NCBI GenBank assembly: GCA_963969365.1 | Contig: OZ017761.1 | Location: 1,612,001-1,676,000 of the forward strand | Origin: Asterochloris sp. CNOR1 | Taxonomy: Eukaryota > Chlorophyta > Trebouxiophyceae > Trebouxiales > Trebouxiaceae | Length of the DNA stretch: 64,000 nt | Direction of reading: 5' to 3' | In this document: positions 9,568 to 62,439 of the stretch, piece by piece | How the letters are laid out: each line of letters opens with the position of its first letter | Position numbering within the stretch: the stretch's first letter is position 1 | Notes under the pieces: generated by a model | Seen by the model: only the letters and a program-made list of their open reading frames with translations | Told to the model about the DNA's origin: nothing | Databases searched by the model: none | Position numbers and translations under genes: made by a program

Positions 9568-12500
9568 ATGGTCAAGCTCAGCCGGGAGGAATGCTATGAG
9601 CTGCTGGGAGTGAAGGTGTGTCTGGTTGCCTGGTGCTGCTGCTGAGCAACGCTGTTCTCGCTGCCTCCTCTGAGTGCTGATGTGCCCATCTGCAGGAGGG
9701 TGACGATGATGCTATCATCCAGAAGGCCTACAAAAAGCTTGCATTGCAATGGTGAGGCGCCACAGACATGGCAAGGCACCTTGGTTTTGCCAGGCAGTAT
9801 GTAGGCTTTGAGGGGCCTATCTGCAGCAGCGCAGCTGCTTGATTCGGGCTTCATGAGGCTTGTGTGCCCCTCTGGGTCAGCCAATGCTGCTAACCCATGT
9901 GCTGCCTAAGGTTACCACAGGCAGCTCAGCGTCAGGCAGGCACCGTCTGTTTGTGGGTGGCGGAGCCCCTGTTTTGAGCTTTGGCTTAAGAGTGCCACAT
10001 GATTGCAGGCAGGATTGCTGCGGCTCACAATGGCTCTTGTCAAGGGCTGCTTCACCTTGCTGGGCCCATTGTTGCTGCAGCATCCTGCATGCCCAGTGGT
10101 GAATTGGCTGCTCCGCAGCTAGGCTTGGAGGGAGGCACCTGCATGCTCTGCAGCACCGTCCATATGTTCTCTGTGACGCTGAGTCGACTACCTGTGCACA
10201 TCAGGTACTTTGACGAAGACCCAGCTGACACATTGACAATGATCATCACCTCCTCGCTGGCCGTTGACCTCCTGCACTGCAGGCAGCATAGAGGGATTGA
10301 CATATAATGGTCACATGAAGTCCTGCCTGTGCTGCACTGCAGACACACAAACCTGAAAGCAGGCAGAACGCAATGCGTTCACCCCCTGAGGCACAGTTCC
10401 GGTGCATAGCTCTCGGAGGCCAACCCTCCTTGTGTCCTGCAGAAACCCCATGAGGAATCCAGACAGCGCAACCTGCCCTTCAGCAACTGCAGACCTTCAG
10501 CAGCTGCAGACCTGTGCGCCACGTGCAGACACACTGTCAAGCACTCAGAGAGCACTCCCCCTCTTCCTGGCTCTGCAGGCAGCCTGGCAAGCTCCTGGAC
10601 AGCCCACACAGTGGTCTCAGCCAGCAGTTGCATCCCATCCTGCCCTGCAGAAGTCCGACAAGCACCTGGGCTTATAAAGTCCTGTGTCACTTACAGGGCC
10701 TTTGTCTCAACCGCAGCTGTGCTCCCTCACAAGGACCGTCGTCGTACAGGCGACGGCAGCAGTCAGACCCAGATTGCCCGCTTTGAGCTGCCCTGTGGTG
10801 CAGGCTTTCTGTCACTAGCCCAGAAGGCACACACGTGGCAGGGCTTAGTGGCAGGTCCAGCAGGTTGATCTGCCTCTCCCTGGTGTATTGCAGGCACCCT
10901 GACAGGATCTTGGAGAACCCACAGAGTCCTGTGCCTAGCCTACCCCATGCGACTCCTCTCTTGCTTGCCTCCCTCATTCCCCATGCACGCACCTGACAAG
11001 GACCTGGAAAGCCAACAGGGAGTGAATCTTTCTCAGCTGCCTCCCCTGCTGCTCCTGCAGGCATCCTGACAAGAATCCAGACAACAAAGGAGAGGCCACC
11101 ATCAAGTTCCAGGGCATCTATAATGCGTACACACGGCTGACCCAAGAGGAATCCTCGTCCGAGGATGACTTTGACGACTACAACGAGGACCCTTATGATG
11201 CAGCAGCCCAATTCTTCTCACGCTTGTGAGTGAAGGGTCATCATGGGCTCACGGCAAACCCTGAGTTCAAGCTGCCTTCAGCTTGCCGGGGTCCAGTGGG
11301 TTCCAGTGCAGCAGATGGTTGTGCTGCACGTTCCCAGCTTTGCATGCAGCCACTCACTCTCTTTGCATGTGTGAGCTTTGGGGGGCTCTGCCGCACCTGT
11401 AGCTGCGCTCAGCACGCTTGAAGGCTGCAACTTATTGCATGCTCCCAGCGCCAGCTGAGATGCAATGGACCCACTGTGATCAGGGTTGTCTCTGTTGTAT
11501 TGACACTGCTTGACACCCGAAGGCAGGTGCAGGCTCCCTATCGCCCAGCAGCAGCTTAGCACAGCATAGCACTGTAGCTCTGAGAACAGCAATGGTCCAA
11601 ATAAAAATGTGACAGAGACTATGTTGCCTGGGCCGTTGTCTCCCTGCACATCTTCCAGCAAGGCAGATTTCTTAGGCGCCCAGGAGCTGCATGGCTGTAG
11701 CACACTTGCAACACCTTCAGTGCCTGCTCAAAGGTCACTCCGTCCTGTCAATATCAGAGCTCACTCAGCCCATTCCCCATGATCTGCAGCTTCGGCAACA
11801 TGGGCCATTTCCCCGGCTATGGCATGGGCAGCATGGGTGGCGGCTTTGGCGTGGGAGGGGCTCCTGGCATCAGGATCTTCAGCATGGGAGGCATACCAGG
11901 CATCGGCTTTGGCATGGGAGGCGGTGGCGGCCGTGGGTAAGCAGGGGTGCTTGTGCGCGCCAATCCCCACTGCCCTGAAATGTCTGCTCTGGAAAGGTAC
12001 AGTGTACATTAATCGACTAAATTGCAGCATCCTGTGTCCTGCATGCTCAGCTCTAGAACTGAGTACAGAGATGCGGAAGCAGACACAAATAACATAGCCT
12101 GCTGCATCTGCTCCCTGCAAAAGCGGGCATGGCACCAGAGCATTCTGCATATTGTCGACACAAATTGCTTGCCTGCAAGAGCATGCAACCTGCCCTTGCG
12201 TTGCACCCCCAATGTACTGAGTAAGCCAACTTGTTGCTAGTGATGGTGATGCGTAGCACAGCAATTGCTTGTGCAAGCCAAGCATGTGCATACCTCGGCC
12301 TGCATCAGTGCTGGGAGGCACAGCGCGTTGATTTGTGTGCCTCAACTTGTCTACCTGGCTGTCACCGCAGGTACTTTGGCAATGACGAGTGGGAGGATGA
12401 CTCAAATGATTCTGACTATGCCGACAGCCGGCAGCAGCGGCGAACCCAGGACCGCGCGCAGTGGCGACAGTCACGCAAGCAGCAGGAGCAGCAGTGGCGC

Positions 12501-15500
12501 CACAACTACAAGAGCGAGCAGCGAGCAAGGAAGCAGGCGCAGGTGAGGCTCACAGAAACTTACTCAACCTGCTTTGCCCTGCCCCGCCCTGCCTGACGGT
12601 GGGCAGCCGGCAGGGAAGCAGGTACAGGTGGGACTTGAATGGCCTGCCCTGCCTGAAGGCCTGGCAGCGGGCAACTCAACAGTGCAGATGGGGCTCCAGA
12701 GGGCTGCATTTGCCTGCCCTGCCTGTTGGGGTGGCAGGGAGCCATGAAGGAGGCGCAGGTGGGTATATAGCAGAATGGAGGATCAAAGGGTCCTTGGTGC
12801 TTTGGCCAAGCAGCAGGCACAGCATGGGCGCCATGCTTACAGCAGCAAGCAGCGCGCAACGAAGTTTGCCCAGGTTGAGCGTCAGGGGTCTGGTTGGCCT
12901 TTCCTGCCCTGCCTTGGGGACTAGGCAACGGCCAAGGTAGCAGGTACAGATGGGGATCAAGGGCATGGGCACTTATGTGGCAAGGCGCTGTGGCGCATGA
13001 GACCTAGGCGTTGCAACCTGACAGGGGATGATGGGCCCTCTATCTGGAGGATGCTTGCATCTGCCCGGCTGCAGGTGATATGGCACGCAAATGGGCGACA
13101 GGCTGGCTGCTTGGCTGGGCACGCTTCACTGTTTGCCTCTGTCAGCTGCGTTCAGGCTGAGGGTGCCAGGCTGTGCAGGGCTCCCAGCCCTTCCTTGCTG
13201 CATGCTGCGTTTTGGCTATGCCTATTGACCCTGAGCAGACTGTCAGAGCAGTCTTGCCCTGGTGTCCTGCAGTCAAGGTCCAGCCAACCCCCCAAGCCCT
13301 ACTATGAGCGCACACCTGACCCCTTTGCCAAGCCTGAGGATCTAACCCCCAAGATCCCAGCCAAGGTGGGTGCAGGATGGTGTCCAAGCTGACCTGCCCA
13401 TGCTCTGGCTGTACACAGCAAAGCACAGACCAGTTACCTGCCTGCACTGCAAGCCACTGCCTTTGAGATGGGCTGGGCCTCCGTCTGTGTAGCACTTGAA
13501 AATACGAAGGTGCCTCCCTCTGAATACACAGTCTTTACAACACTGGCTGTGCTGCTGCCACTGCAGTTGTCCTGGCAGCTGGCACACGCTGCCTCTGCAC
13601 AGGCCGAGCAAGCTCTGGCCACAGTGTCTGTGAACTCCCGCTGCAATAGCCGCAGCAGGTAGCAGCCAACACTGAAAATTTCCACATATGATGCTGCCAT
13701 GCAGCCGCCTCAGCACAGGCAGGCCTGAAGGCACTTGGCATGGCTGCCATGGACAGCCCGTCTGATCGCACTGTGTCTCTGACCCTGCAGCTGCCTCAGC
13801 AGCTGGCGGCCGAGCAGGCAGCACAGGCAGAGCAGGAGCGGGCCAAGGTGATGAAGACCCTCACGCAGCTAAGCCGCCCTGTGCGCAGCCAGCACACGGA
13901 CACCAGCCTGACGATGCAGCTGCTGCGGGGCAGTCGCGACGAGAGCGTGAGTATGCGCTGCATGTGCAACAGGAATCTGCATGATGCACAAGCCTGCAGC
14001 TGAACTGGGCAGGTAAGAGAGGGTGCTGGCAACCCGCTGCTGTGCAGGACCTCTGTTCTGCTCGCAGCTTGGACAGCAGACTGCACGGCGGGAGCCAGGC
14101 CTCCTGCACGGGCGGTTGTGGGGCAGCAGGTTGCGGAAGGGCATCCTGCTGGCCTGCACAGCAGTATGCCCAGGGCAGCAAGTGCACAAAGAGGCCACGA
14201 AACTTGCAGTCACTGCTTGCACAATCTGGGGAAGGTGGCACTGCACATGATCACCTGTGCGCCTGCCGTGTAGAACCCCTTGATACCCTGGCAGAAGCTT
14301 GACTGGAGCTTCCACTCTGTCTGCAGCTCTGGGAGACCAGCAGGCCTGACACCACTTATGCTGACGTGCCCATCAGCAGTTCAGATGACCTCGGGGCGGG
14401 CAAGCCAACCAAATTGAAGTGCAGCCTGTGCCTGTGCAGTTCAGGGAGGGCAGCCTCGCAGAGGTCAGGCTGTGGCGTGGCACAGAAAATGCCCCCCTGG
14501 AGGAGCCAACTGTCAAGATCACAGACAAGGCGGAGGTCGAGTGCTCTGGCTTGGAGCCTGGGACCAAGTACTTTGTCAGGGCGCGGCGGGGTGAGTCATT
14601 GCTTCCAACATGCAGGGCGGCTTCCAATGGCATGACACGGCATGAGAGGCAAGCCCACTGCCCCACTGTGGCTTGCTGGCGGATGAGAAGCGGAACGCCC
14701 CACCTCCCATGCAGCTGTGGGACCACTGGCAGGCCCGCTGAACCCCTCAAGCATCCCAGGCTGCTGTCAAGCCCCTATGCCGCCCCCTGCAGGCCAGAAG
14801 TGGAGCGAGTCAGAAATCCTGTGGGGCCCCTGGAGCGCTGTAAGCAACTATGTCACCTCAGGCACAGCCCAGGCTTCCTCTGAGTCTACTGCAGCCCGCA
14901 CAGGTACAGCTCTACATGCACCCATGGCAACGCACAGGCTCATGATCTGGACGGCTGTCATGCCTGCATGCTGGGCTCATGCTCTGTAATCATGGCGTCA
15001 GCACTGCCCAGCACCAGCACCTGTGCCAGGCAGTGGCCGGCGGTGGTGCCAGCGGCGGTCCAGGTGCCCAAAAGTCATGCCGTGTGGTCTGCTGCAGAGC
15101 CTGTGACTGCTGCCAGCGGTGGTCCCAGTGGTGGCCCCAGCCGTAAGAAGAAGGGCAAGGCGCCCGCTGCCCCCAGGCTGGAAGTGAACGAGGCGGAGCT
15201 GCAGAGGCAGGCGCAGGAGGAGATGCTGGTGAGTCAGCGGTGAGGGTGTGCATAGGTGACAGGCAGGCCCTACATGGGACAGCCTGGGGGGTTTTTGGGG
15301 GGTTGGGGTGGTGGGCTGCGAGGACCACTGCAGTGGGGTCAAATAAGCAGAGGTGCCTCGCAGCGGCAGGCACATCTTGAGGCACTGTCATGCTGCCCCA
15401 ATAACACAGACTGGATGTGGTGGCTGAACTAAAGCCGCAGAGGCAAGAACTGGAGAGATGCTGGTGGGGGTCGGCCGATACTGTGCAGGCTGAGCAAGAA

Positions 15501-18500
15501 GCCACCAAGCAGGGTGACCAGCAGTTCTCTGCTCTGCCTGGACAGTGAAGGCCACCTGGCTGCTTGCCCTAGCCCCTTCTCTGCGTAAGTTGGCAAGCCG
15601 CAGGTAGCTCCTCTACTGCGGTCTTCTGTCTTTGTAGCCTCTGAGCTAATGTGCTGACAACTGTGGGCTGCTCTGCGATGTGACTGAGGCAGAAGGGCTC
15701 TCTAGGGCTCTTCAACCACTTTCCAGCTTCACAGCAGGGGACGCGTGCATGCGACTGGCTTGTGTCTCACGAGTACAAACCAGCGGATGGTGCAGGCAGC
15801 CAAGATGCGGCTGAGCGTGAATTCTATGACCACCTGCTGCTGCTGCCGCAGGCCAAACAGGAGCGAGACCTTGCTCAGGAGGCAGCGCTGGCCAGGGCTG
15901 CAGCAGATTGGGAGGCCAGCAAGGCGCAGGCAGCTGGGCAGGTGACCTGCTGCTGCACATGCACTGCACACTGCAGCTGTGCTGAGCTCGGGCTGCAGCA
16001 CAATGTGCTGCGACGTCTGCGGCATGTGAGACATGGAGCTGGACGGAACACTGCAGCTGGTGCCAAGCCACTGCATGTGCAAGCATAGACTCTCATGATG
16101 CACTTCTTGATCCCACTTGTGTCAATTGTGCTGACCAAGATGGCCCCAAAGTGTGCAACCCCAACAAGTCATATGTTGCCAAATCAGAAAACTGCCTCAT
16201 TGTTGGCTGCTGCAAGTATCCCAGCGCTGCATCTGCACTCTTGCAAGCGTCCCAGTGCTGGACTCCTGCTGGTAGCCATGCCTGCAGGGCAAAGAACTGA
16301 AGAGGCATGCTGGGCGGCTGCCCTGCGGTTGGCATGACCAGCTCAATGCTGTGCCTGTGGCTGCTGTGTGCTGACGGGCATTGCTGCCGTTTGCAGGCGG
16401 CACCTGCCAAGACTGAGCCCACCGCTGGTGGGAGGAGCAAAAGGAAAAAGAGGAAGGCCAAGGTCAGTTGCCACTATGGTCTGTTGCGGCCTCATCTCTC
16501 TGCAGCTCTGCTGGAGAGCAGCGCGGGACATCACCTGCAGGGCGGGTGGGGCATCTGAATAGTGGTGCCACAGCTATGGTCGCCTGCGCTATGCTGACAC
16601 ATTATCATGCATCAGCGCGCATACTCATCTGGCAAAGCTGATGCTGCATGTTGAGAGGGTGGGCAAGGGGAGAAAAGGGCTTGGACTTCACATGTCACCT
16701 GGGAGCCTGTATGGGACCCTGTCTTGCCTTTGTCATCCCCTGTTGCGTTTGCAAGTCGTCCCAAGGAAGGTACCTCTTTGATGTGGAGCAGGGATCATTG
16801 GGATATAACTTTCCAAGCAATTGTACGAGAGGCATTGTCAATGCAGGTTGAGGCATGTTGCTTTCAGACCAAGTTGCTCTTTGTCTGCTTTTGCCAGCCT
16901 TATCACTCATCCTCAACTGAAATTGGCTGCAGGTGGAGGTGGCCCTGCTTTCATTCATTGACACACCTTCTTTGTCTGCATATCTCTGCCTCAGCATCCT
17001 TTGTAACCCCTCCTTGTGAGTGCAGGTGGAGGAGTCCACCATCCCTGGCATGGAGCTAAAGGCCACAGGAGCGCAGGCAGGCAAACCCGGCAGCACAGGG
17101 GCGCACCAGCTCAACTCGGGCTCACAGGCTCCGGCGGCTTCTGCCACTGCCAGGTGAGCACATGGCAAGGCCTGGTGGTTGGCACCAGGGAAGGGCGAAC
17201 AGTGAGGGCTCGGCGTCAGGGCCTGCAGCGCAGCAGCAATCTCCTGGCGCTGCCAGATGAGCACACATAGAGGACGAAGGGGTGAGGCCTTGTATATGCC
17301 GGCAACTCCTGGCAGTGCCAGGTGGGACCCAGAAGGGACTGCACTGCCAGAATGCAAGGATTCTGGCATTCCTGCTGGAGGCATCTGCTCCCATCAATCC
17401 CAAGTCCTGTGAAACCTGGTTCTGAAGCAGCTTTGAGCTACATATCTGTATGCTGAAAGGCAGCATGCAGCTGCTGGGCAGGTGGCAAGAGACGAGCACA
17501 TACCAACACTGTGACACTCACGTCAGACATCTGTCTTATTTGCCCCTGCAGATTCGAAGTCCCCACTCTAATGCTGCCCTTCTGGTTAACTGTGTATCAG
17601 GAACAACAGCCAAAGCACACACTCCCACATCCGGAATCTTCCCTGCCTCACACATGCAGGTGTCCAGCACTCACACTTCTGCATGTCCCTGACAAGAGCA
17701 TGCCGCCTAGGCTCACAAGTGGTTAGAAAACCACCCCCCACCCTTTGATTTGGGCAACAAGGGTCATGCTGTATACCCCTGCAGGACGGAGCAGGCTGTC
17801 CAGATCCAGCGCTGGACGAGGCACCACATGGCCCTGGGCCTGCGGGGCCAGGCACTGGAGGAGGCTGTGCAGATGAGCATCGTCATGGAGATGAGCATGA
17901 GGGAGTATGAGGCAGAGGCGCAGCTGCGCGCTGCTGCAGAGGTGGGCACCAGAGCACCGAAGCTCATGGGGAGCAAAGGTGGTAAACAGTCCAACTTGTG
18001 TCAAAGCATCTGTCTCAGCAGCTTTGGGGTGCTGCTAGAGTTGGGCATTTGAGCCGAGAACTTGGGTCAGTGTAGGTTTTGTGATGTAACAGTGAAGGCC
18101 AGCTGTTTGCTTGCTTTGGTGGGCAGCTCGATTGGCAGCTACCCCCGAAAGGCATGCAGGTGAAGGTGCAGGCTGCTATCCAGGAGGACTTGGCAGTGCT
18201 GTCCTTGAGCTTTGATGGCTGGCTGCTGGCTTGCTCTTTTGAAGGGGCGTCAGGGGCGCTGTGCATGGAAGACATCTTGTGAGGATTCTGAGGACCTCGA
18301 AATGCAGTCAATACATGGTCAGAAACAGTGCCAAGCTGGGAGCAGAGCATCAATGCCAAAAGCATATGGGTGATGGGCATCTGTGGCTGCCATCTGCAGC
18401 CAGTGGTAGAAGCCGGCTATCACCTGCAGATTCCATGCTCATCTGGTTCACTGTTCCTCCTTGAGGTTTGCCTGACCTGCTTGAGATGATGATTGTGCTT

Positions 18501-19899
18501 CATTGCCGTTTTAGCCTCCTGCAGTTTGCTGATGCGCAAGACGAGGAGGGGTCTGGCCGTTTGGTACATCTGACCTGCTTGTGATGTTTTGCTTCACTGC
18601 CTCCTGGTGCCTGCTGCAGCTTGATGCCCCAGCAGAGGGTGGGTTTGGCATCCCTGCCAGGAGTGCCCACCCTGAGTCAGACGTCACTGGCCAGGAGGCA
18701 GGTGGTCACCAGGCCTCCCCACATCCACCCCTACAACAGCAGCAGTGGAATGGGTTGCAAAGCGAGGTGGCGGCGGCCCACTCCCTGACCCACTCCCTGG
18801 GCGCTCCTGCCAGCAGTCAGGCAAGCAACGGTTATGGGGCTGGGGGCTATGGTGGGCGTCACGGTGCAGGCTACCACCAGGGGCAGGAGGGGTTTGGACC
18901 TCCAGACGGCTCAACCCGTCAGTGGAGAATGCCAGCCCAGCAACACCAGGAGGGCTTTGGCGCTCCAGATACCTCAGCCAGTCAGTGGGAGCAGCAGCAG
19001 GAGGGAGGCTTTGGTGCTCCTCTGGGCCCCACCCTTCAGCAGAAGATGCCTGCTGAGCAGCAGCAGGGGGGCGGTACGAGGCGTCAGCCAGCTCCAGCGT
19101 TTGAGTGGGAGCCAATTGCTGAGCACCAGGCTAGATGGCAGCAGCAGGAGCGCCGGCAGCCAGACGGAGGCGCCCGCGACGGGGGCAGGCTGCACACGCC
19201 CCAGGCTCAGGGCCACACGCCCCAGGCTGGGGGTTGGGGGCAGCCAGGGCCACCTCACCAGCAGCAGCGGCTGCCGCCCCAGGCACTCAAGGCGACCAAG
19301 CCCAGGCCTGGCGGCCAGAGGGAAATGCAAAATGATGCCGAGCAGCGAGAGCGGTCAACCCAGGCGCACTTGCCCTCCACGCGGCATGGGGGGGCCTGGG
19401 ACGCTGGGAGCCAGCCGTCTACGGGGCACCTGTCAGGCAAGTCTCTGCCCTCTGCAGCACACTCTGTGCATGGTCTACGGTTCTTGGGACAGAGGCAGGT
19501 GTTTTGTATTGCGCCCAGGAACAGTACACCTGTGCATGCCACAGCGTGGCTGCGCAGTCCAGGCATGCCCTGGTGGCCAAACAGATCATCCCAATGCTGA
19601 GGGACACCAACCACCGCTTTGCGCATCTCACCCCCTTTCCCCTCCCCCAGCCATGCATGGAGCACTCAGTGTTGGCTACCTCTGCCCGCAGGGCAAGACA
19701 ATGGGTGGCACCAGCCAGCCTTGTCACCCCCGCCGGCAAGCAGCAATCGCGGCCCCCTGCCACGAACTTTCCAGCAGCGCTCGCCATCACCCCCTGGCTG
19801 GCGCTCCGCACCCGAGCCTCAACCACAGCAGCATCAGCAGGAGCCTCAACACGATCTGGAATGGCAGGCAGAGATCTCACACAGTGCCCCTGTCGCTCC

Positions 19900-19934
<35 letters not shown>

Positions 19935-22900
19935 TGGAGCAGGGATGGCAGGCAGAGCCCCTGCAGCAAGCCCCTGCTGTGGCTGTGGCATGGCAGCAAC
20001 AGCAGAAAGAGGGGTGGGAGGCAGAGCAGAGGTACCCCTCACAGCCCGTGCCTGCAGCAGAGGGCGGCTGGGGCGGCGACCAGTTCACCAGCCGCCCTCA
20101 GGCTGGTTCCCAGGGGGAGGGCTGGGGTGGGGAGCAGGGTAGCTGGGCACACCTGCAGCAGCCAGCTGCGGCAGGCCAGGCTGAGACAGGGTGGGGCGAC
20201 CAGCAGCCAGCGCCACAGCAATGGCAGCACCGGCAGAGGCACCAGTCGCCTGCCGCAGAGGGCTGGCAGGCTGACAGAGGTGCACCACAGCCAGGCAGTG
20301 GTTGGCGGGCGGGGCAGGGGCACCCCGGCAGGCAGGCGCAATGGTGGGGGGCATCCTCTGGCTCGCCCCAGCCAGGCAGCCGCAGCAGCATCAGGCCCGA
20401 GGTGAGTCACACAGCCTGAGGCAAGCCACATCACAGGTGCACATCGCCACAAGGATCTGCGGGGCAGGCTTTGGAGTGAGGGTCACTGTCTGACTCGCTC
20501 CAGCCATGTGCATGTTACAGCAGGAGGCTGCTCCGACAGGAGCCAGAGGTGAGTCACAAACAGGCTGTGCTTGTTCTGTTTTCAAAATTGGCAGCAGGAC
20601 TTTGCTTCCGAGATCAGTGCGTGCAGGGTTGCTGAAGTTAGACTGCAAAAGGTTCTGCCCAATTTTGGGTGCAGAAGGAGCTCAGCAGGCCTCTGCAGCC
20701 TCCAAATGATTTTACACAGTTTCAGCTGCTGGCACCTGCCCTGGGGTCAACCTCAATGCGACCGAACCAATGTGGGTGCAAGAGGAATTACAGCAATGTC
20801 TGACTCATTGCCCACCGCTTCAGCTGCTGTGTACTGCCCAGCCCTGATGTGGGCTTGATTACATGGTGTGTCAAGTGTGAGTGCAAAAAAACATCCGCAG
20901 GGCTTGAGCGCATTTGCCATCGGTGTGTGTGAGTGTGCACTGTCTTCTGAGCTGCCGCTTTGTGCTGCACAGCCATCACATATGAAGATGGAGATTGCTT
21001 CAGTAGGTGACCTTCAACCCCAGCCTAGTCTTTGCCGAGCCACATGTTTTGTGGTTACATCCGACATGTGCCCTGTTACTTGCTACAGGGTCCCCAGAGG
21101 AGCTCCCTGGGCTCCAGCCAGCCAACCCACTCGCAGGCAGACATTGAGTCTGCCCGTCGTGCTCTAGAGGCACTCAACCGCCCCAGGGGTGCCCCACCAG
21201 CGCCTGCCCCTGCCCAGCTGCCCCTGAGCGACTTCAACAGGCTTGAACAGGTCAGCAACTTGCTGCCGGCTGCAGCTTGCACTCTGAATCCTGAATCTGA
21301 TGCTGCTGCGTTGCAGCCACTGGCAAGCAGGGACTACGAGGGTTTTGAGAACCTTCAGGGTCCCAAGCACCCCTTCCTGCACTGAGCAGGCGGGCTTGTC
21401 AGCAACATCTTCCTGCACACTGCAGACGGTTGAGTCGTGTTGTCCCTGAGCACCTGCCCTGTCTCTTTCCAGGGCGGCGGCATTCCAGGGAGCTGGCCTC
21501 AGCAGGGGTCAACAGCAGCTGCAGAGCAGGAGCATCAAGGCCGTTCATCATTGCCATCTGCCCTGTTCCAGCAAAATGAGCCGGCAATCGTGACAGGTGA
21601 GGTTGCTGGCTGTGGCGATCTGCGTCCTGGGAGGTTGTAAGGTTATCTTGATGCCTTACCTGCGGCCCTTGTTTGGGACTGCTGCTTGCCGGCCACCTGC
21701 TGTAGCACCTTGCCTGCCTGAAGGAAAGGCCAGGCAGCTTATGCAGCCTTGGCACCTCTGGTGCATGGGAACCTGATAAGCCACCAGATGTGGGAAAATA
21801 GAGTTGCTGGTCTGCTGCTGCCATGCTTTCAATGCTGCAGGCGAGGCTTCGTGTGCCACAGGTGGGGCCCCAGAGGTGAATGCAAGCCCATTTGAGCAGC
21901 AAGCCAACCCGTCGCTGCGCAAGCCTGCCAAGTCACCGCCAGCTGAGCCCAAGCCTCGCAGCAAGGCCAAGAAGGGTGGGGAGCAGGTGCGTGTTCCTGC
22001 ATCTGAGTTGCTTAAAGGGCACTGTGTCGGGGGTTGCTGCCAGCACACCCTGCGCTGCATGCAAGAAGCCTGTCCTGTCGCACTTCTTGGCTGAGGACAA
22101 TGGAGGCGTGCCAAAGCTACAGTCTGCCTTGAGAGGCGCCTGCCGTGTCATAAATGCAGCACAGATACAGGGCCCAGCATGGAGCACCTGAGTACCAGGA
22201 TTTTAAAGGACATTTCCAGCAGAAGCTGCAAGTGGAACAAGCCTAATTCTTGCTTCATATGCCCCTGTCTGACAGCTGTGACCAGCTGGCCATATTGCTC
22301 TCGCTTGCACCAGTTGCACCGGCAATGTTCCAACCAGGGCCTGCCAGCAATCGGGCTCATCCTTTGCACTTCATCCTCTGCAATTCACTTGATCTTCCTA
22401 TATATGGGCCCTCGAGCAGGGCTTCTTGGCTAGCTAGCTGCTGCACCAGAAACAGCTCAGGTGTAGGGCTCACACTCTCTGCTATTCCTGTGCACCTGCA
22501 GGGCGTCGGGCATGGCTCTTTGGAGCAGGCACAGGCTAACCAGCCCTCGCGGCCACTCCTGCAGCAGCCAGATGACGGGGATGCCCCACCTGGCTTTGAG
22601 AGAGGGCCAGGCAGGAAGAAGAAGGGGAGCACCCGCACCGAGGCCCCTGCCAGCCGCCAGCCCTCTGCAGGCAGGGCAACAGCTGGCAGCGGTGGGCCAC
22701 CTTCTGCCAATGCTTCTGCCACCACTCCTGCCAACAGCCAATCAGCTGCGGGCAAGGGGAAGGCTGGCAAGGGCCGCAACGCTGCTGGCAAGGGGCCAGC
22801 TGCCGATGCAGCAGCATTACTGGCTGGGGCAGACATGGGTGCTGCCAGCGGTGGCGCCACCGCCGACTTCGCCGCCCCCAGTGGCCAGCAGGGCAGACCC

Positions 22901-28533: not shown

Positions 28534-29379
28534 CTGTGAGCTGGCAGGGGACGCCTCCTGCAGGCAGGGGCTTGTATACCCTTTCAGACTGCCATGTAGC
28601 TCGCAAAGGAGAGGGGGCCTGACGCTTCACGACAGCTGGCAAACACTTGACCAGAGGATGGGGTGCAGGGAGTCCTGGCGGGGAAGACTGCGAGCAGAAG
28701 ACCAGGCAGCCCGTTTTGAGTGATTTAAAAGGATGATTGCTTCTGAGTTGCCACAGCAAGGTGGTGCCAAACAGGCATGGCGCATTGAGGATGGCACATC
28801 AGCTTGCCAGGCTGGCATCTGGGCCTGAACCTAGATGTCAGACAAGCAGCAGCTGATGCCGCAGGCTAGGCAGCAGATGGAACAAGTTGTCCCAGACCCG
28901 AGAGCTGGACTGACCTGAATTGGGCTTGGGGGAGCCTCTGTGACCGCTGCAGCAGACACAAGGAGGCTTTCCTGTCTGCCGGTGGCTCTGTTGAAGCATT
29001 GCCTGTGCAGCTCGCTGTGTGACCTGCATTGCAGGTGTTTCTGCTGAGCGTCCCAGTGTCTGCAGGTGCCATTGCAACCATGTGCACCAGATGCTCACCT
29101 GTCTGCAATGGACTGGAATTTAGCCTGTCTACAGGTCCTCAGCACCTGCATCATGGTGAAACGCAGCTTTGGCATCTCTGTGCACCCTGCTGGGGTGGGA
29201 CATCAAGAGAGCTTGCCTGGACTGCTGGACACCGGCTGCTGGAAGTAGGGCCGCATGCGCTCCTATCCATAAAATAGTGCATGGGGGGAGAGGTTCTGAT
29301 CCTCTTCTTGCAGACCCTCACGCTGCCCCTTGAAATTCCATGTGCACACATCCGTGTTATCTGCTTGAACAGCACTGAT
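28534..29379. promoter_or_regulatory. Divergent region between IspF and RUS genes
   Basis: Holds the unresolved IspF transit-peptide exon (about 28540-28820, minus) and, by position, the promoters of both genes. No specific element recognised. Confidence 0.4.
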
Positions 29380-33863: not shown

Positions 33864-39001
<5,138 letters not shown>

Positions 39002-48698: not shown

Positions 48699-51600
48699 AT
48701 GGCCGTTGGCACCCTCCCCTGCAGTTGTCTGCCCCAGAGATGGTCCAAGAATGTAAGCTACTGTAAGTGTCGGCCCTGTGGTGCTGCCGCTCGCACCAAT
48801 GTGACCACTGATTTCACTGCAGGTCGTCAGGAGTTCCAAAACTACTGCCCACGTGCCTGCCCATTCTAGATTTAGCAGCAGCAGCCAGAGACAGTCCACA
48901 GCTGGGAAGTGCCACAGCGCTGCTCATGCAGAGGCCGTGGCTGAGACACAAGGACCTGCTGCAGCCTCAGAGGACGCAGACACGATCTCAGGCAGGTGTT
49001 GAGCACGCAGCCGACATGTCCTGGCTGTGCCAGTTGCAGCCACGCCAGCATTGATGCTCCCACTCTGGGGCGTTCCGTAATGCTGCCTTCTGCATGCAGA
49101 GGAGTGGAGGGAGGCACTGGAATGGCAAGAGAAGAAACAGGTCATAGAGGCCAATTTCAAATTTGTTGGGGATGGGTATGCCCTTGTGACGGTAAGCATG
49201 ACTTGAGATGATACTGTGCTCAATCCAAACTCCAAATCAGGTCACTCACCAGAAAGAAGGGGGTGCCATGCACTCACTCTGTACGAGAGCTGTACCAGAG
49301 GCCCTGAGCAAGCCCACAGGCATGCACAGAAGCTGTCTGAAGAGCTGCAGCTTCTGCTAAGCTTGGACCTGCTACCTTGTGCAGATTGGCAAGCTCACAG
49401 GTATCGTCTCGCGCTTCCAGTTGAGACCCTGGCGCCTGCTTCAGCTGTTGCCAGATCAACAGCAGGAGGACCCCCTCTCAATGACCAAGGTCATTGCTGG
49501 CAGCCCTGTGGTGGACTGGACGCGGGGCAAGGCCTGGAGGGGGGAGCCGCTCTTGGTGAAAGTCATTGGGGTGAGGGCACACTGCCTGTGCGGTGCACTG
49601 CCAGAACAGGGCATCTGCAGATGCTGCTGCACCATCGGGTGGCTTGTGTGCCAAGCCACCACGCTGGCAAGGCAATTGTCAATAGGGCGGGAGCATGCAA
49701 CCTGCCAGAGCCGTGCCCGAGCAGGGCAGCTTGCAGCAGCCCAATTTGCATTGCCTTCCTGCACCCTCCTGGTGCGTATGAGTAGTGCCGCATGCAAAGC
49801 TCATGGCATCTGCTCTCTGAGTGTCAAGCCACCATGCTGGGATTTTGAACATCAGCGAGGCAAGTGTACACGACCTTGCCAAGGCGCTGCCTGAGCAGAC
49901 CAAACTGCAGAGTCTGTCTGGCAAACTCAGCAGGGCAGCTGTGCAGTAGCACCTGCTGATAGCCTCATCAAGCTTACGTGCATATAGCAAAGCTGCTGTG
50001 CCAGCCAATCAACTGGTAAAGGTGGACTTGTAGACCGCAAAGCAGAGCTTGCACAGAGTCTCAGCCTGCCGCTGAGCTTACAAAGCAGGGACTGAGCAGT
50101 GCAAGGGCAGGTCAGCAGTGCCTGCACAGGGCCTCGGGCAAGCGTCACGATAAGCTGTTGTTGTTTCATAAACCTCTGTGCCAACCTCCGTGCCAGACGC
50201 ATCCCATCGCCATCTCTGGACTGTGGCTGCAGCTCTCTGAGACTATGACAGCCACCCAGAAGCTGCTGCGGACCTCCCATAGCCTTTCTCACCACGCAGA
50301 TGTGAAATGTTGATGCGCTGCTGTAGGTGGGGTCCCCAAGGACAGGGTGCGGCTGTCAAGACTCGGCCTGTGGCCATGGATGGTCATCATGTATGCAATC
50401 ATGCATTCTTCTTGCAGGCGAGCCCCAACAACTGGCTGTGGTCATCTTGAACGCCTGCACGACCTGCTGCAGTCCCCACGATCTCTCACCATTAATGCTG
50501 GGGCCTCCCTTGTGCTACTGCAGGTAGATGTCCCCAACAAAAGGCTGCGCCTGTCCGAGAAGCCTGTGGCCATGGACGAGCTGCTGAGCCGGGTCAGGGC
50601 TGGCGACGTCGCAGACGGCATCGTTACAGGCATTGCCAACTCAGTCGTGTATGTCAGCATGCGGGACCCCGAGACCGGCCGCTTTGAGGGTGCCAGCGTG
50701 AGTCACAGTTGTTTTGTCGCCTTTGTTGCTGTCTGGGATGTTGCGCTCTGCCTGCATGCTGGTGTGCTGCATAGCCCCCCAGTCACTATAGAGGTGCAGA
50801 GGGCGACAGCTCCATGGTGAACCCTGAGACCAGCCAACCTGAGGCTGTTAGGTCATGTGCGATCTGTGCCTGACTGTGTGGCGCTGAGCAGCCTGGTGTC
50901 CATGGCTGCTCAGCTAAAGCGGCACAGCCTTTGAGGCTGTGTGGTGGCTGGTGCAAAGCTCCCCATAGTCTGGGGAAGAAAGCCCAGTTTGTTGATGCCT
51001 TCATGTGATGGAATTGGCAAATTAATGGGTTGACCTTGGCACGTGGTGTTGACGCCTGTGAACGTGTGGGCTGGGTCACGTTGTCTGACATGTTGGTTCT
51101 GTGCTGGCAGGGCATCATCAGCTATGGGGAGCTCAGCTGGGACTCCTTCCTGACGGTGGAGTCGGTGGTGCAAGTGGGGCAGAACATCACCTGCAAAGTT
51201 CTGCAGGTCCAGAAGCAGCGCAGGAAGATTCTGCTCTCGCTGAAACAGATGGAGGTGAGTGGTTGCCGGGTGCCGTCAGCCCTAGGTGCTTTGTGCAAGT
51301 AGCAGGGTAGTTGACAGGTGTTACTCCAGCAAACGAACGCAGGGCGCGGTCTGATGCTCGGTGGTCACTGTTGTTGGCTACGGCATGTGGGTGAGAGGCA
51401 ATTTGGGAGCTGAGCATACAGCCTGCTGTATGTGGGTGACAGCAGCTCTGTCTGCCGTATGTGGGGGGTGACAGCTGCTGGAGGCCATCAGCTTTGCCTG
51501 CTGCAGTTGGTTGAGAGGCTGCCCTGGAGCCTTAAGTGCTGGTCGCGCATGTGGATGAGGGCTGTCAGGTGCCACTGCACTGGCTGGTGTACTTGAGGAC

Positions 51601-52617
51601 ACAATGGTCCAAGACTGCTGCATCCAACCTGCATGCTGCAGCACTCGCTCAGGCTGGTCACATCCAGAAGCTGCACTGCATCCCTTCTTGCTGCATGTGC
51701 ACCTCTGATTGCTGTGCACATTCCCAGCAGCTCATGAGCACCCAGCCCTCCTGCCGTGCCTGCAGACTGATCCCCTGCGGGAGACTCTTGACAAGGTTCT
51801 TCCCAAGGAGAACCGCGAGCTCATCACAGAGGTGCCTGTCAGCATCCCCCAGGGGGTCAAGGACATCTGCAATGAGCTGGAGTTGGAGGACGGCATTGAG
51901 TATGTGGTGCTCGGCAGACAGGCTGAGGAGCGGCGCGTCGTCTCACAGGTAAGCTGCTTGGGGGCACTCTCGCAGTGTGGTAAGATTTGCAAAGCCTCTC
52001 TTTTGTGGCATCCTGTGTCGGACGCCAGGTGACATGTGTGCTTCGGGTCCTGTGTGCCGGGCAGGCAGTTTAGGAAGAGAGAGGGGTTCTCACAGACATC
52101 TTTCTGGAATGTGTCCTGGAGACACTGTGGTGCTGGGCAGGCAGACAATCAAGGAGGTGGTCTCTCAAGCAGATCCTTGGACTGGGCTGCTGCCCTGCCT
52201 GACGCCACACTTGTGACACGCGACTCACCGACCCACAGGTCGTAACCACCTTGCCTCTGTAGAAGCAGGTCCTGTGAGCGTGCATGCCAACGCTGAGCAC
52301 AGAGCCTCAAGCCAGTGGTGTATGCTGCCAGCGCTTAGTGTGGAGTGGGCTGCAGGACTTGCAGCTGTGGCTGTTCAAGAAGCTCTTCCCTGGTGCTCAG
52401 CATGGCCAGTCAGTCAGGTAGCCAGCACTCAGCCTGCCCCTGATTGTCTTTCTTGGTGCAGGATCTAGAGCTGTGGTTATCCAGGGAGGTTGTTCCTGAC
52501 GGGCACCTCCTCATCACGCGGGCAGGCAAGACGGTGCAAGAGCTGCAGATCAAAACCTCCCTCAGTGCCCCAGAGATGAAGTCTGCTGTCCAGCGGGTGC
52601 TTCGCAGGCTCGTGTAG
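48699..52617 (+). CDS. S1 RNA-binding domain protein, probably plastid
   Basis: Predicted organellar RNA-binding protein. Phase-consistent exons: 49100-49191, 49385-49570, 50524-50697, 51111-51254, 51766-51948, 52462-52617. The 5' part is inferred: ATG 48699 opens a transit-like peptide (exon 48699-48822), and exon 48932-48991 (EAVAETQGPAASEDAD) fits only with a GC donor, otherwise 48822 joins 49100 directly. A degenerate first S1-like unit runs from KKQVIEANFKFVGDGYALVT through IGKLTGIVSRFQLRP to VDVPNKRLRLSEK. A clear second S1 domain follows: MDELLSRVRAGDVADGIVTG, then IISYGELSWDSFLTVESVVQ and VGQNITCKVLQVQKQRRKIL. The C-terminal domain (DPLRETLDKVLP to VQRVLRRLV) is not recognised. Plant S1 proteins of this kind bind chloroplast transcripts; the exact orthologue is not named. 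Confidence 0.75.
52050..52172 (+). repeat. Two decayed copies of an S1-gene exon end in the next intron
   Basis: The exon ending at 51948 finishes GTGGTGCTCGGCAGACAGGC ... CGTCGTCTCACAG. The intron repeats it at 52124-52172 (GTGGTGCTGGGCAGGCAGAC ... GGTGGTCTCTCAAG) and 52050-52100 (TGCCGGGCAGGCAGTTTAGG ... GGGGTTCTCACAG). Confidence 0.65.
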
Positions 52618-53754: not shown

Positions 53755-54508
53755 GACAGCACTTCCTTGGGGTGGCCTGCTGCTGGGGGCCTGGCAGTTG
53801 AGAAGATCAGCAGTTGGCCTAAAGAAGGAAAAACCAGTGTACCAACAACACTCAGCCTTGCTGCAGCGTTTCAGCCCTTTCCTCGCGCTCAGGATGACGA
53901 CCAGACACTTCAGGTGGGTGTCCAGCAGCAGCAGCCTCCGTGGAACTTTTGGGCCAGCTCATTTCGGCGTCAAGACTGCCCTCCTCCCATGGGCTGTTGT
54001 CAAGCAGCCATGCAGCTGCTTCCTTGTCTAAGCTGATCACGGCCTTGCCTGCTGAAGGGTCATGACAAGGCTGATGCCCCTGCACTCTTGCTCAGCTGTT
54101 TTCTTGAGCTCCTGGCAGCCTCTCATGCGTGCTGCAGGAGCTAGTCCAGCCGCAAAATCATGGTCGTTCCAGCCTGATTGTTGGCAGATCCCTCACCTCA
54201 AAGCCACAGCCAGCCGCTTGCAGCCTCAGCGGTTCCTCTCGGCGGCCTTCAGGTAACTCGCAAGACCGGTGCCGAGGCTTACTTGAGCCAGGAGCCGTTG
54301 CAGCGGGGCTTTCTGCACCAGCCTTGTGTGGCCTGCTCCACAGGGCAGCACTGGATCTATTCCTGTACAGCATGCCTGGCAGCACAGACTCAGCTCTCTG
54401 TGGTGACCTGATGCGCTTTGGTGCACCCCCTCCTGATCCACCCTCCCTGCTCTTGCAGTGGGCCAGCGCACAGCCTAATTCACCTCCCTGCAGCAGGCAT
54501 CTGCAGGG
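53755..54508. promoter_or_regulatory. Divergent region, SPT4 / DCD gene
   Basis: About 755 bases between two outward start codons. It may also hold a 5' untranslated exon of the DCD gene, since ATG 54509 lies just after a ctgcag acceptor. No other feature recognised. Confidence 0.4.
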
Positions 54509-57500
54509 ATGGCAGCCTCAGGCCGCAGTGTGCCGCGCAAGCCTGGCCCTCCAGCAGGAGTGATCTTTGGCTGCAATAGAGCCTCTGAGGATGAGTGCCT
54601 CAACGGCCTCTTTGGCATGTCGTCAGGCCACTGGGGCCTGGTCAAGGAGATTCTGCCCGGAACACCCTGCTTCCTGTTCAACTTCAACACCAAGGTGAGG
54701 GCATCCTGCCCTGCAGCAGTGCTGCACAAGCTGTTTGCCTGGCAGCCCTGCGCGGCTGCTAATGCAGCCACCAGCTGTGGTGAGCCGCTGCTGGATGCAA
54801 AGCGTGGTGGAGACAGCGTACAGCTGCCAGCAGCCAGCCTGTTCTCAGACCTGATCTGTTCTGTTCATGCACTCAGCTCTGATGAGAGGCTAGCTGTCCT
54901 CAGCGAAAGCGCTCTCTGCAAGGCACACCTGCAGACGCTTCTGCCAGCCAGATCATACACCTGCAGCCTGCCAGCCCACCTTGGGATCGTATTTGCTCAG
55001 CCTACCATTCACAGCCTGAGGCAGGGGAGGCTGCATGATGTCACTGCAATCAGCTCATGCGGAGCTGTGCCAGGAGCTGATGTGGTGTCAGGGCTGTGCC
55101 ACGTCAGAGTGGTGGGAGGTCACCATGCCTGGCAGTAATGTTCATGTCACTCAGATCCCGCTGACTGATCAAGCATCCTCTGGATGCTGCAGCAGCGCTC
55201 CCAGCAAGCTGGCTTGGCTTGTTGAGACAGGTGTGCAGTATGTGCTGCAAAGGGCTGCCTTGCTACATATTTATGCTGCAGCACAATCAGCGTCCTGCCT
55301 CCCTGCTGCAGGAGGGTGCAGGCGTTTTCAGTCTTGCATTGCTGAAAGCTCTGGCAGTCTGTCTAACGTGCTGAACACCCGATGCGGCAGCTGCCTGGAT
55401 CATTGCTTGCTGCAGCATGTCAGCTCTATCAAACAACCTGTCACAAGATCTGAGGCTCTTACCACCTCTGCCTCTGCTGCAGAAGCGGCGCGACACATCT
55501 GCGTTGCAGCAAGGCACAGAGCAGAGCCTGGAACACTTGTTGGGAGCCCTCTTGGTCTGATGTCACATGCCTGCCAGAATCTGTTGTGCAGGAACTGTGC
55601 ATTGCGTGTCCCCCCCCCCCTGCAGCTCCCTCTCCATCATCAGGTGTCATGTGCACCCGGCCTCTGCTGCAGGAGTTGCATGGGGTGTTCAAGGCAGTCA
55701 CTCCTGGCGGGTGGAACCTGGACCCCCTGGCCTTTGGCGGCAAGCAGAAGGACGGGTCCAGCTACCCTGCACAAGTGCGTGTGGAGTACTGCCCCCGCTG
55801 CCCGCCCATGGAGGAGCACCAGTTCCGCTCGGCCATCGCAGAGAACTACTTCAATCCCAACAGGTTCAGATGGGAGCTCCAGGGCAATCAGGTGAGGGTG
55901 GTCCCCCTGTGGTGACCCCTACTTTTCCGCAAAGTTTGAGTGACAGGAGGTCAGGTCAGCTGGGAGGTCTCCTGCAGCCAGGTGGGGCAGCATGTGCTGG
56001 CCAGAAGCAGCCTATTGAAGGCCTTGTCCTGCAGCCAAACAGCCTCAGGGGGCAATCTCACAAGACCCAGGTATGTGCTGTTCGTTGGGGGTCGTGCCGT
56101 GGTTGTGACATCTTTATAGTGGCATTTCTTCCAGCCCAACATGCTCAGCTGCGAGCTGCTCAGCTGCCAAGCATGACAGCATCTGCTGACCTGAACCCCT
56201 CTGGGTGAGGCAGGCTTTCCTGCAGCCCATCAGCTTTGAGTTTGGAACTCCAGGGCCGTCTGTAGTCTAGGGCAAAGGAGTCTTAAGATGCAAGGAGGTT
56301 GAGCTGTAGTGCTGCCTTCCTGTGACTGCTGGGGGCATCACAACAACCCCTCCAACAGCCATGATAGGCTGCTGGCGCAAGCCTGCGCACCCAAGAGCAT
56401 CCATGTCTTCTGGCCTGAACAGCTCCAACTCCACATCTCCCCCATAGGTGGAGCACCTGCTGGACCTGTTTCTTGGCCCTGGCGCCCCATGGCCGCCTAC
56501 TACCACCGAGAGGGTGGAGGAGCGCAGGGGCGGCGGCAGCTACTACCCACGCTCACCCCCTAGGGCTGCCCTGCCACCCCCAGACCGCTACCTGGATCGC
56601 CCTTACAGCATGGACAGGTTGGTGCCAAGCAGTTGTGCTGCAAGAGCCGTGGCCCAGCTCATGTCAAGCCTGCCTTGAGGCCTCACCATGTAATCTGCAG
56701 CCATGTGATGCCATGCCTATTTGAGCTTGCACACTCTACCAATCCTGTCCTCAAATCCAGCGGACTTTTGCAGCCCCTCAGAATTTTCCACAGGTCCTAG
56801 CAAGCCTAAGGTGACTTATCAGGCAGCTGGCTGTTCCCAAACCACAAAAGCCGCTCACCATCATCAAGTGCCAGGTTGACTGCCTCATCGCCTGTGCAGG
56901 GGTCGCTATGGCCCCCCTTCCCCGCGCGACTACAGGGACCGAGGCTGGAGGCGCTATGATGATGACTTGTACATGCGCGAGCCCGCGCCACGGCTGGCCC
57001 CTCCTGCCTATGGAGGGTACGATGACCTGGATAGGGGCCGGGACTATGGGTGAGCAAAGCTGCTGCTCGGGACTTGTGGTAACTCCTTGCGGCACAGCGG
57101 GGCTCGATTTGGAGGGGGCCTCGCTTGAGTACAGCATGCTCTGTGGGCAGGCAGCCCACCTGGGATTAGGGGCAGGCGCACCCGCCTTGCTGCATGTTCA
57201 TACTGCACAGCAGCCAGCTCCCAGGGGGGCCATGTTCTTTTGGGCAGCAACCATCCTGGAGCTGCTGGGCTAAAAGATTATAAAGATCACTGGGCTGCTG
57301 CTTGTTGCGCCGCTTTCCTGAAGTGTTCATGGTGTCTGAGCACAGCCAGCGTCCTGAAACTCATCTGCTCACTGCTGCAGGCGCCCCCTCCCTGATGAGC
57401 GGTATCCCCTGGGCCCCCCTGATGAGCCCCTAGGTCGCCCGCTGGCAGTCAGCAGAGGCCTGGACGGTCCTGCAGCCTACGGTGCACCCCTGACCACAGC

Positions 57501-60500: not shown

Positions 60501-62439
60501 TGGCTGCCAAGTGAGTTGCCTGCCCCTCCTGTGCTGCCCAGGTGGAAAGCGCTTCCACCTGCCCTGCAGGATGTCTTGCAGCCATCTACCCAGTCTGTGC
60601 ACGCATGCTGCTGCCAGCATTCGTTGCGTTCTGAACTCAAGCAGCCCCGACGCCAAGGCATTGACCTCTGGGCCCGCATGCCACCATTTGCATGCTCCTC
60701 AGGCCTGACTGCACCTCCAGCGGGAAGCAGCCGCTTCTGTGACCTGCAGCTTGATTTCAAATGCTGCAATCATGCTGACCTGAGGGTGTCCTGCCAGCTC
60801 TTGTAGGCCTCTACGCCCCCCACTACCTGCAGCTTGCGGCTGCACGCACAGGGCACCTCTGTTTGCTCAGCCCAACGATAATGTGCTGCGTCCTCGGGCG
60901 CAGCATTCCAGCAACCTCCGCCTCTGTGCAGGGGCACCCTGCTGCTTGCCTGTCCTGCGGCTGTGGGCTCAGCACTCAGCCACTTCCCACACTGCCTGCA
61001 GGTCGCGCCTGGACGCAGAGGGCACCTCAGCCGCACGCAAGGGCGGCGAGACCAGCGCCATGAGCGAGGTCAGCGGAGACAGCCAGCGTGCGCCGCTGAT
61101 GCCGACCGGGCAGACAGCTGCAGCCGCCGCCAGCACTCCCCATGCAGCAGCAGCTGCAGCAGCTGCCGAGCCCATGCAGACAGAGGTGGAGCAGCCCAGC
61201 CTGCGGGAGCGCAGGGGTCTTGGCAGCCTTACGGGCGTCAAGATGGAGCCCCTCACCATCACTGCTCCCCTGGGGGCAGAGGGTGTGGGCAGGGACATTG
61301 CCATCCAGCCAGTGCCCACCCCAGGGGCTGCCAGGGACCTGGAGGCAGTGCAGTCAGCTGGCACCACGCCAGTGGAGCGCAGTCCAGAGCGCAGGTGGGC
61401 CTCGTGTCCTTTATGTATGGCAAGTGTCTGCTGCAATGTCTAGTGTTGTGAACGAGGCTCGACGCACTGTTAGTGGGCGCAGCGATCGCTGTAGCGCCTT
61501 GTGGCCAGCGGCCCTGCATCCTGCCAGGTTATGTGACCGTAGGCCAGCCTCATCGCGTCTCCTCGTCCAACCTGCCGTCTACTCTAACAAGAGCTCGGTG
61601 TGCCGCTGATCCTTGCTGTTTTCACCTACAGGCCAGCTGAGGCAGCAGAGAAGCCGCAGCACAGCACCCGCGACAGCGAGCGGGAGCGCTCAGCCCGTGT
61701 CCCTGCAGCCGCCCCCACCAGCCGGTTGCCCCGCACGGAGTCCCACAAGCGAGAGTTTGAGCGCCGACCTGAGCGGGACAAAGAGCCATCCAAGCGGCCC
61801 CGCCTGGAGCGCGGCAGGGAGGACAGGGACCACCGCAGCAGTCGCCGGGATGCAGAGCGGCGCAGCAGCCGCACAGAGCACGACCGCGAGCGCGAGCATG
61901 GCAGGCGCGAGGCAGACAGGCAGAAGGGCAGCAGCCGGCGCGAGCATGCAGCCGATCGCGAGCATGGCTCCGACAGGGAGCATGGGCGCCCTGCTCGTCA
62001 CGAGCGTGCCCGCTCAGCCGATCTGCCAACTCGCGATGCCGCTCCGCTCAGAGTGCAGGTTGATGCAGAGCCTGCGCCCTATGCGGCTGGTGCAGATGGT
62101 CTGAGCAGGCAGCAGTCAGGCACGGGGGGCCACCGCTCCCGCCAGCCCGAGCTGGCTGCTGCCCTCGGGCAGCATGCAGCAAATGCCAGCAATGGCAGCC
62201 CCCAGGAGGAGGCTGGCGAGTCTGAGGCCCCCAGCCTCCCCATGGCACTGGCAGCTGAGACAGCCGCCACCAGGTCACGCCACCAGGCCCCAGCCGCTGC
62301 CTCCACCCCTGTCAGCCACTTAGCAGCCCGCGTGAAGCCTGAGCCCATGGAGGTGGCCACAGGGGCAAGCACAGATGTGCCCGTGGAGGGGCAGGACGAG
62401 GCCCCTGCTCCTGGCGCCGACTATCTGCCCCTTGCCTGA
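54509..62439 (+). CDS. DCD-domain protein with Mei2-like RRM and RE/RD-rich tail
   Basis: Predicted nuclear RNA-binding, stress- or cell-death-linked protein. Thirteen exons join in phase: 54509-54694, 55673-55891, 56448-56617, 56900-57049, 57381-57606, 57892-58029, 58295-58459, 58805-58942, 59175-59338, 59775-59877, 60329-60510, 61002-61394, 61632-62439, giving 1,013 residues. DCD domain (about 15-145): AGVIFGCNRASEDECLNGLF, GTPCFLFNFNTKELHGVFKA, YPAQVRVEYCPRCPPMEEHQ and FRWELQGNQVEHLLDLF. An Arg/Asp/Tyr/Pro-rich segment and an unrecognised middle follow. From about 465: TTFEITNLPKGTEPRQLVDI, GGFTDQFDMLLL, HTTIINFREPSDADRF and VVDLQVHSVQGRTALEAEY, which parallels the Mei2 C-terminal RRM. The tail is Ala/Pro-rich, then RE/RD/RH-rich (KREFERRPERDKEPSKRPR). 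An in-frame extension of exon 8 back to about 58746 is possible. The DCD assignment is strong, the RRM moderate. Confidence 0.85.
60820..60870 (+). repeat. Decayed copy of DCD-gene exon 12 start in intron 11
   Basis: Exon 12 starts CTGCAG|GTCGCGCCTGGACG then CAGAGGGCACCTCAG. About 180 bases upstream is CTGCAGCTTGCGGCTGCACG then CACAGGGCACCTCTG. Confidence 0.6.

Follow-up and report, generated by a model that had tools for sequence, protein, structure and literature searches.

The stretch of the Asterochloris sp. CNOR1 genome analysed here (contig OZ017761.1, positions 1,612,001 to 1,676,000; the window, 64,000 nt) carries genes for a J protein, a RUS protein, an aminotransferase, TLP18.3, an LHC-like protein, an S1 protein and a DCD protein, and the introns of these genes contain decayed copies of their own exon edges. 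An initial annotation of the window had attributed such copies to these seven genes, and the observation is confirmed, as border matches were found in all seven. The window belongs to a 56.4-Mb genome of 21 contigs. It was compared with 200 kb of contig C1 (500001–700000; 58% G+C) and with one 10-kb piece from each of seven other contigs, C6 and C12 among them. For the lichen alga Asterochloris glomerata, the accessible text of PMC6652019 gives a genome of 56 Mb with about 9 introns in each gene and a G+C content of 56–62% across 98% of the sequence.

Gene models came from a home-made gene finder, a two-strand hidden Markov model that trained itself on the window and the 200 kb of C1. It returned 450 introns in these 264 kb, with a median length of 283 nt. 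The learned splice sites were CAG|GTGAG for the donor and CTGCAG|G for the acceptor; these motifs had also served as seeds for both site models, and an earlier run in which the acceptor seed was CAG alone also settled on YTGCAG. Pfam matches to nine spliced proteins were DnaJ, YgbB, UVB_sens (RUS), Aminotran_3, FAD/NAD reductase, TPM (TLP18.3), Chloroa_b-bind, S1 and Dev_Cell_Death (DCD). Four of the proteins include full or near-full domains (YgbB 1–154 of 155, UVB_sens 14–239 of 241, Aminotran_3 11–403 of 403 and Dev_Cell_Death 1–126 of 126), the S1 and DnaJ matches are nearly complete and the remaining domains are partial. Since domains are complete or nearly so, the conserved exons in the models are sound, whereas some gene ends and small exons are unreliable. 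Two pairs of genes, RUS and the aminotransferase as well as S1 and DCD, were joined by the finder into single models, which were separated manually. The J and DCD models were submitted to Pfam in part only, and the DCD model is uncertain outside its domain.

The clearest case is the J-protein gene (here and below, features are on the plus strand unless stated). Its intron 12543–13272, 730 nt long if a doubtful 21-nt exon is ignored, holds four decayed copies of the preceding exon end, each followed by CAGGT or CAGAT. The exon, in a model with a DnaJ domain, ends at 12542. The source of the ladder is the exon end together with the 5' splice site (12476–12544), which forms a direct repeat of 69 nt and 75% identity with 12807–12875; this pair fails the low-complexity filter and is therefore absent from the filtered counts. 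Nine CAGGT, CAGAT or AAGGT sites occur in the intron. Four of these sites (after 12627, 12758, 12873 and 12949) are each preceded by 42 bases that agree with the exon end at 24, 26, 29 and 24 positions, respectively. The five other intron sites reach 12–16 matches, and the highest value among 332 similar sites elsewhere in the window is 21. In the alignment, the first copy occupies 12603–12635, with the decoy CAGGTGGG at 12627; the second lies at 12734–12761 (decoy CAGGTGGGT) and the third at 12807–12875 (decoy CAGGTTGAG). The fourth, at 12924–12954, was found as a repeat of the first (12602–12632) and has lost the GT (CAGATGGGG). The 21-nt exon that the finder called at 12738–12758 falls within the second copy and is probably a miscall of this exon-end remnant. 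A 3' border of the same gene, that of the exon at 13791, is also copied: 13547–13626 matches 13771–13850 over 80 nt (shift 224 nt, 66% identity, border score 26). The coding tail of the J-gene model, at 18500–25500, is rich in Gln and His and contains repeats that keep the frame, one example being a 57-nt unit at 23940–24072. Window pairs starting at about 18500–25500 were omitted from the flank-extension, collinear-match and border-geometry analyses described below.

In order to count such copies, each exon edge (60 nt) was compared with its own intron, and the expectation was taken from introns of other genes. A decayed same-strand copy with a score of at least 15 was found at 81 of 880 borders, against 1.6 expected; the 5' borders contributed 43 of 440 (0.4 expected) and the 3' borders 38 of 440 (1.2 expected). 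A corrected low-complexity filter was used, which still removes the best J pair. An earlier test of 318 introns, made with an older filter that dropped long matches, pointed in the same direction (16 vs 0.4 and 19 vs 0.2 at a score of at least 16). At a score of at least 15, one or more border matches were present in 27 of the 42 genes having six or more borders. A lack of excess over composition controls, which the initial annotation named as refuting its reading, did not occur: the signal stands far above shuffled sequence and the introns of other genes alike.

Border matches in the window numbered 26 of 166 (13 of 85 on the 5' side and 13 of 81 on the 3' side). They include those at 12542 and 13791 (J), 30082, 30249 and 31900 (RUS), 34846, 36271, 37394, 37600 and 38825 (aminotransferase), 43863 (TLP18.3), 46169 and 46893 (LHC-like), 50524, 50697, 51948 and 52462 (S1) and 55891 and 61002 (DCD model). 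C1 gave 40 of 546 and the seven other contigs 15 of 168. The window rate is about twice that of C1, a difference given without a significance test, and it is weak evidence of local enrichment because the window was chosen by a reader already aware of the pattern. Since C1 and the other contigs also show border copies, the pattern is genome-wide and no peculiarity of the window. The suggestion that the density over 50 kb is unusual is not supported within this genome, the same pattern being present on C1 and in five of the seven other contig samples.

The border copies belong to a larger population of short local repeats. At shifts of 40–400 nt and a score of at least 16, local direct high-scoring segment pairs (HSPs) numbered 64 in the window, a count that takes in the repeats of the J-gene coding tail, and 139 in C1; local dinucleotide shuffles gave 1.8–2.6 and 7.6–7.8, respectively. 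Near direct repeats also exceeded those in Markov-5 sequence, and far pairs in C1 were close to the Markov level (9.8 vs 9.0 per 1e8 at a score of at least 16). At a score of at least 18 the window contained 59 near direct pairs, again with the coding repeats, against 0.7 scaled far pairs and 2.0 local inverted ones. The copies are mainly direct: with the older filter and a score of at least 16, direct and inverted pairs numbered 33 vs 1.8 in the window and 79 vs 16.2 in C1, where an inverted excess of lesser size also exists. Two marks of short local tandem-type duplication were found: same-strand orientation and, except in the C6 and C12 samples, an excess of near over far pairs. Shifts are broad, with a median of 128 nt and a 5–95% range of 55–320 (only shifts of 40–400 counted), and most copies are 65–90% identical. 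With exon-exon pairs excluded, local pairs occur at 0.66 per kb in the window, 0.60 per kb in C1 and 0.53 per kb in the seven other contigs pooled. The modest set of local inverted repeats in C1:500001–700000 (16.2 scaled, score at least 16) perhaps represents small foldback elements.

We then asked where the pairs fall. Per 1e8 cells, at a score of at least 16, the pooled rates were 241 for exon-intron, 205 for intron-exon, 200 for intron-intron and 143 for gap-gap pairs, and 302 for exon-exon pairs with the J-gene tail included. The corresponding rates were 207, 186, 218, 160 and 157 in C1, and 354, 268, 160, 56 and 982 in the window. Pooled, the two border classes differ little from pairs lying inside introns, and a process specific to borders is not supported. 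Rates across borders were higher in the window alone and at a score of at least 18 (pooled, exon-intron 197 vs intron-intron 116 per 1e8 cells), so that a mild border effect may exist; there is no clear hotspot genome-wide, and slower decay of the exon copy would mimic a mild one.

Further intronic copies occur elsewhere in the window. An exon end at 17153 and its splice site (17138–17162) recur at 17241–17265 with the GT lost (shift 103 nt). In the RUS gene, the 3' splice site of the exon at 30082 (30059–30087) is copied at 29986–30014 (shift 73, 83%), and the 3' border of the exon at 31900 is copied at 31837–31856 (shift 59, score 16; its partner, 31896–31915, was placed from border-relative positions). 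The aminotransferase gene includes five copies. The end region of exon 34679–34846 (34802–34832) recurs at 34906–34936 (shift 104), and an exon end with its AAG|GTGGAG splice site (36221–36285) recurs over 65 nt at 36331–36395 (shift 110, 75%, border score 31), a copy that contains an in-frame TAA. Exon 37394–37600 is copied on both sides, its start region (37424–37460) at 37294–37330 (shift 130, 81%) and its end (37555–37605) at 37910–37960 with the GT lost (shift 355, 69%). The fifth copy, of an exon start region (38845–38876), lies at 38744–38775 (shift 101, 81%). This gene (34285–38998), initially named AGT2, may instead encode a lyase of what we take to be the AGXT2L1 type; its top solved relative among the best 60 of 193 matches is ethanolamine-phosphate phospho-lyase (6tor).

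In the TLP18.3 gene, an exon segment (42722–42766) is repeated at 42867–42911 (shift 145, 73%); as this source sits at least 43 nt inside the exon, it is mostly beyond the 60-nt border test. The start region of the last TLP18.3 exon (43873–43921) is copied at 43654–43702 (shift 219, 71%). The LHC-like gene contains, on the minus strand, a copy at 46306–46337 of the 3' border at 46169 (partner 46157–46188; shift 149, 81%, border score 20). Two S1-gene copies have a score of 16 and partners placed from border-relative positions: the start of the exon at 50524 (50530–50555) is copied at 50332–50357 (shift 198), and the 3' splice site and start of the exon at 52462 (52457–52498) at 52351–52392 (shift 106). 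The end region of DCD exon 55673–55891 (55849–55878) is copied at 56128–56157 (shift 279, 80%), and the exon that begins at 61002 has its start and 3' splice site (60986–61028) copied at 60817–60859 (shift 169, 84%, score 29). An IspF-type gene of the YgbB family also lies in the window, at 26503–29256 on the minus strand; its spliced model includes nearly the whole domain.

We consider it likely that short local duplication acts throughout this genome, and that units straddling splice sites are tolerated and lengthen introns. Short same-strand duplications, mostly 50–350 bp apart, would have accumulated in introns, in intergenic DNA and across exon borders. A unit straddling an exon-intron border would give the intron a further copy of the exon edge with its splice site. 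Splicing would continue from the outer site, and the intron would grow by one unit. Such an event would be nearly neutral because the outer site can stay in use, and duplications within exons would be tolerated mainly if they kept the reading frame. The intronic copy would decay by substitution and long indels to a fossil of 20–80 nt that in some cases still carries a decoy splice site, and recurrent events would produce a ladder of copies. We infer in addition that the events were tandem and that the copy is younger than its source.

The geometry of the copies is consistent with this proposal. Exon copies crowd the border: among 84 pairs (adjusted score at least 14; 8 dropped) the mean straddling weight was 0.606, where uniform placement predicts 0.430 and the straddling model 0.555, and the log likelihood ratio favoured straddling by 24.9 (14.6 for 39 pairs with a score of at least 18). 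Copies spanned the junction in 29 of 51 cases against 14.0 expected, and with splice-consensus positions removed in 36 of 97 against 22.4 (25 of 63 against 16.2 at a higher threshold). Copies selected independently of the splice consensus keep the GT in 10 of 25 cases and the AG in 7 of 17; these values are above background (5.5% and 7.5%), which argues that the duplications often reach across the splice site. Shifts between exon copies are divisible by three in 23 of 27 pairs, whereas all other pairs are spread evenly over the three classes (35, 36 and 36); this result is less independent than it appears, since 16 of the 27 pairs lie in the window, mostly in the one repetitive coding tail of the J gene. 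Intronic copies do not look coding, because mismatches are nearly even over codon positions (0.192, 0.200 and 0.235). Taken together, border geometry, multiples of three and even mismatches point to real duplications whose intronic copies decay freely.

Several observations weigh against this reading. HSPs cover a median of about one third of the shift, and similarity rarely spans the whole of it. In the analyses of flank extension and collinear matches, limited to pairs with a score of at least 18 and a shift of at least 60, the flanks extended (score at least 8) in 6.4% of 188 cases (control 0.6%), while simulated tandem duplicates with short indels extended in 35–64% over six settings, one of which had more indels. 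Three more heavily mutated settings gave 30%, 16% and 2%, and longer indels 6–28%. As simulated plain tandem duplicates usually extend further than the data, only old and heavily eroded duplicates fit. Young full-length pairs are scarce, 3 of 134 having a length/shift ratio of at least 0.6 and an identity of at least 0.9. A few clear arrays do occur in C1, among them (bases counted from C1:500001) those at 68721–68938 (period 75, 80%), 69054–69186 (period 71, 93%), 157888–158010 (period 40, 93%) and 178216–178359 (period 72, 98%). In C1, the rate per cell of exon-exon pairs is only a little below that of intron-intron pairs (157 vs 218), so exon duplications are not strongly purged. Two of the seven 10-kb samples (C6 and C12) contained no HSP with a score of at least 16.

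The short HSPs and the flanks that hardly extend would also be expected if break repair inserted patches of 20–80 nt copied from nearby (doublets, repair-mediated duplications), with length and spacing unrelated and copies never head-to-tail. Such events, splice sites included, are described for human DNA in the accessible text of Pace et al. 2009 (PMC2671141). However, most local copies are direct, exon copies cluster at the border whereas patches would be placed uniformly, and collinear second matches (score at least 12) are present in the flanks in 15% of cases against 2.7%, which favours eroded longer units over isolated patches. We therefore regard patch copying as unlikely.

The copies were also proposed to serve as decoy splice sites. 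Splice dinucleotides are indeed present in them, and among copies selected by means of the splice site they are kept at 57 of 62 positions, against 0.73 outside, with both bases in 29 of 34 copies; the same dinucleotides away from junctions are retained at 0.45–0.69. We read this over-retention as selection bias, since it vanished in the consensus-independent copies, which keep just the 10 GT and 7 AG given above, and selective preservation was rejected. For alternative exons it can be said that the finder called one J copy an exon, but the nearly even mismatches over codon positions speak against coding use; in-frame stops in 5 of 36 copies are indecisive at such lengths. Maintained decoys or alternative exons are thus very improbable.

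Equally improbable is that the introns were born by duplication of an AGGT-bearing exon segment and then grew, although this is an established model (Rogers 1989; Hellsten 2011, as cited in the accessible text of PMC4974935). Its signature, a shift equal to intron length, was absent: in 318 introns neither exon end against intron end (1 vs 1.6 expected) nor intron start against next exon start (2 vs 2.0) showed an excess at a score of at least 10, and very old births would escape detection. Of the suggestion that introns were gained or grew by duplication across splice sites, growth agrees with the straddling geometry and the excess over controls, and gain has no support. Slippage at CTGCAG, another suggested mechanism, was not upheld. 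CTGCAG (251 copies, the top hexamer) and CAGCAG are the commonest hexamers in the window, and the abundance of CTGCAG is in keeping with the normal 3' splice consensus CTGCAG|G; its enrichment in the copies is modest (44 vs 24.2 of 200 HSPs), common motifs are in any case favoured in HSPs, and shifts are broad. A fixed step size was rejected on this breadth, judged without a formal periodicity test. Chance similarity from CAG/TGC-rich composition, to which the common hexamers and the modestly CAG-rich copies (157 vs 121.2 of 200) might point, has next to no probability and is ruled out as the main cause, because far pairs, Markov-5 sequence, local dinucleotide shuffles and introns of other genes all gave far fewer matches.

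It is possible, if doubtful, that a ratchet drives much of intron length in this lineage, straddling duplications being invisible to selection and exon-internal ones purged. Introns would then grow in steps and build up ladders of decoy splice sites, which would influence how accurately transcripts are spliced. About one border in 11 (81 of 880) bears a readable trace, a countable fossil record of possible intron lengthening with which, given relatives, intron growth could be dated and its rate measured. Gene annotators should be aware that decoy copies can be called exons, as probably happened at 12738–12758.

Viral contigs scanned for relatives gave no match, and a literature search, in which coverage of subscription papers was poor, did not turn up any survey of local duplications straddling splice sites in an alga. 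The components of the pattern are already known: the accessible texts describe short local duplications, repair-mediated duplications in which splice sites can be copied (PMC2671141) and tandem duplication as a route to intron gain (PMC4974935). Like the doublets of PMC2671141, the copies reported here are short, nearby duplicated segments found across a genome. The surveys cited in that text (Thomas 2004, Messer and Arndt 2007, Achaz 2001) dealt with identical or nearly identical duplications, whereas the present copies are mostly 65–90% identical and the focus is on their fate at splice sites. Repair-mediated duplications (Pace et al. 2009, PMC2671141) are likewise proximal copies able to include exons and intron splice sites, but in the accessible text copies within 50 bp were excluded and the mean distance was 1.2 kb, against a median shift of 128 nt here (40–400 counted), and exon copies here, unlike those, crowd the border. 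Introners, reported in green algae, are also repeated sequence in introns; as described in the accessible text of PMC9860276 they form dispersed transposon-like families, whereas the present copies are local, as known without a genome-wide family search. Intron gain by tandem duplication shares with our pattern duplicated DNA bearing splice signals (accessible text of PMC4974935), but here existing introns seem to lengthen, with no trace of new introns. Closer to the present pattern is a potato gene in the same text, in which an 83-bp duplication lies inside an intron and the gene structure is unchanged.

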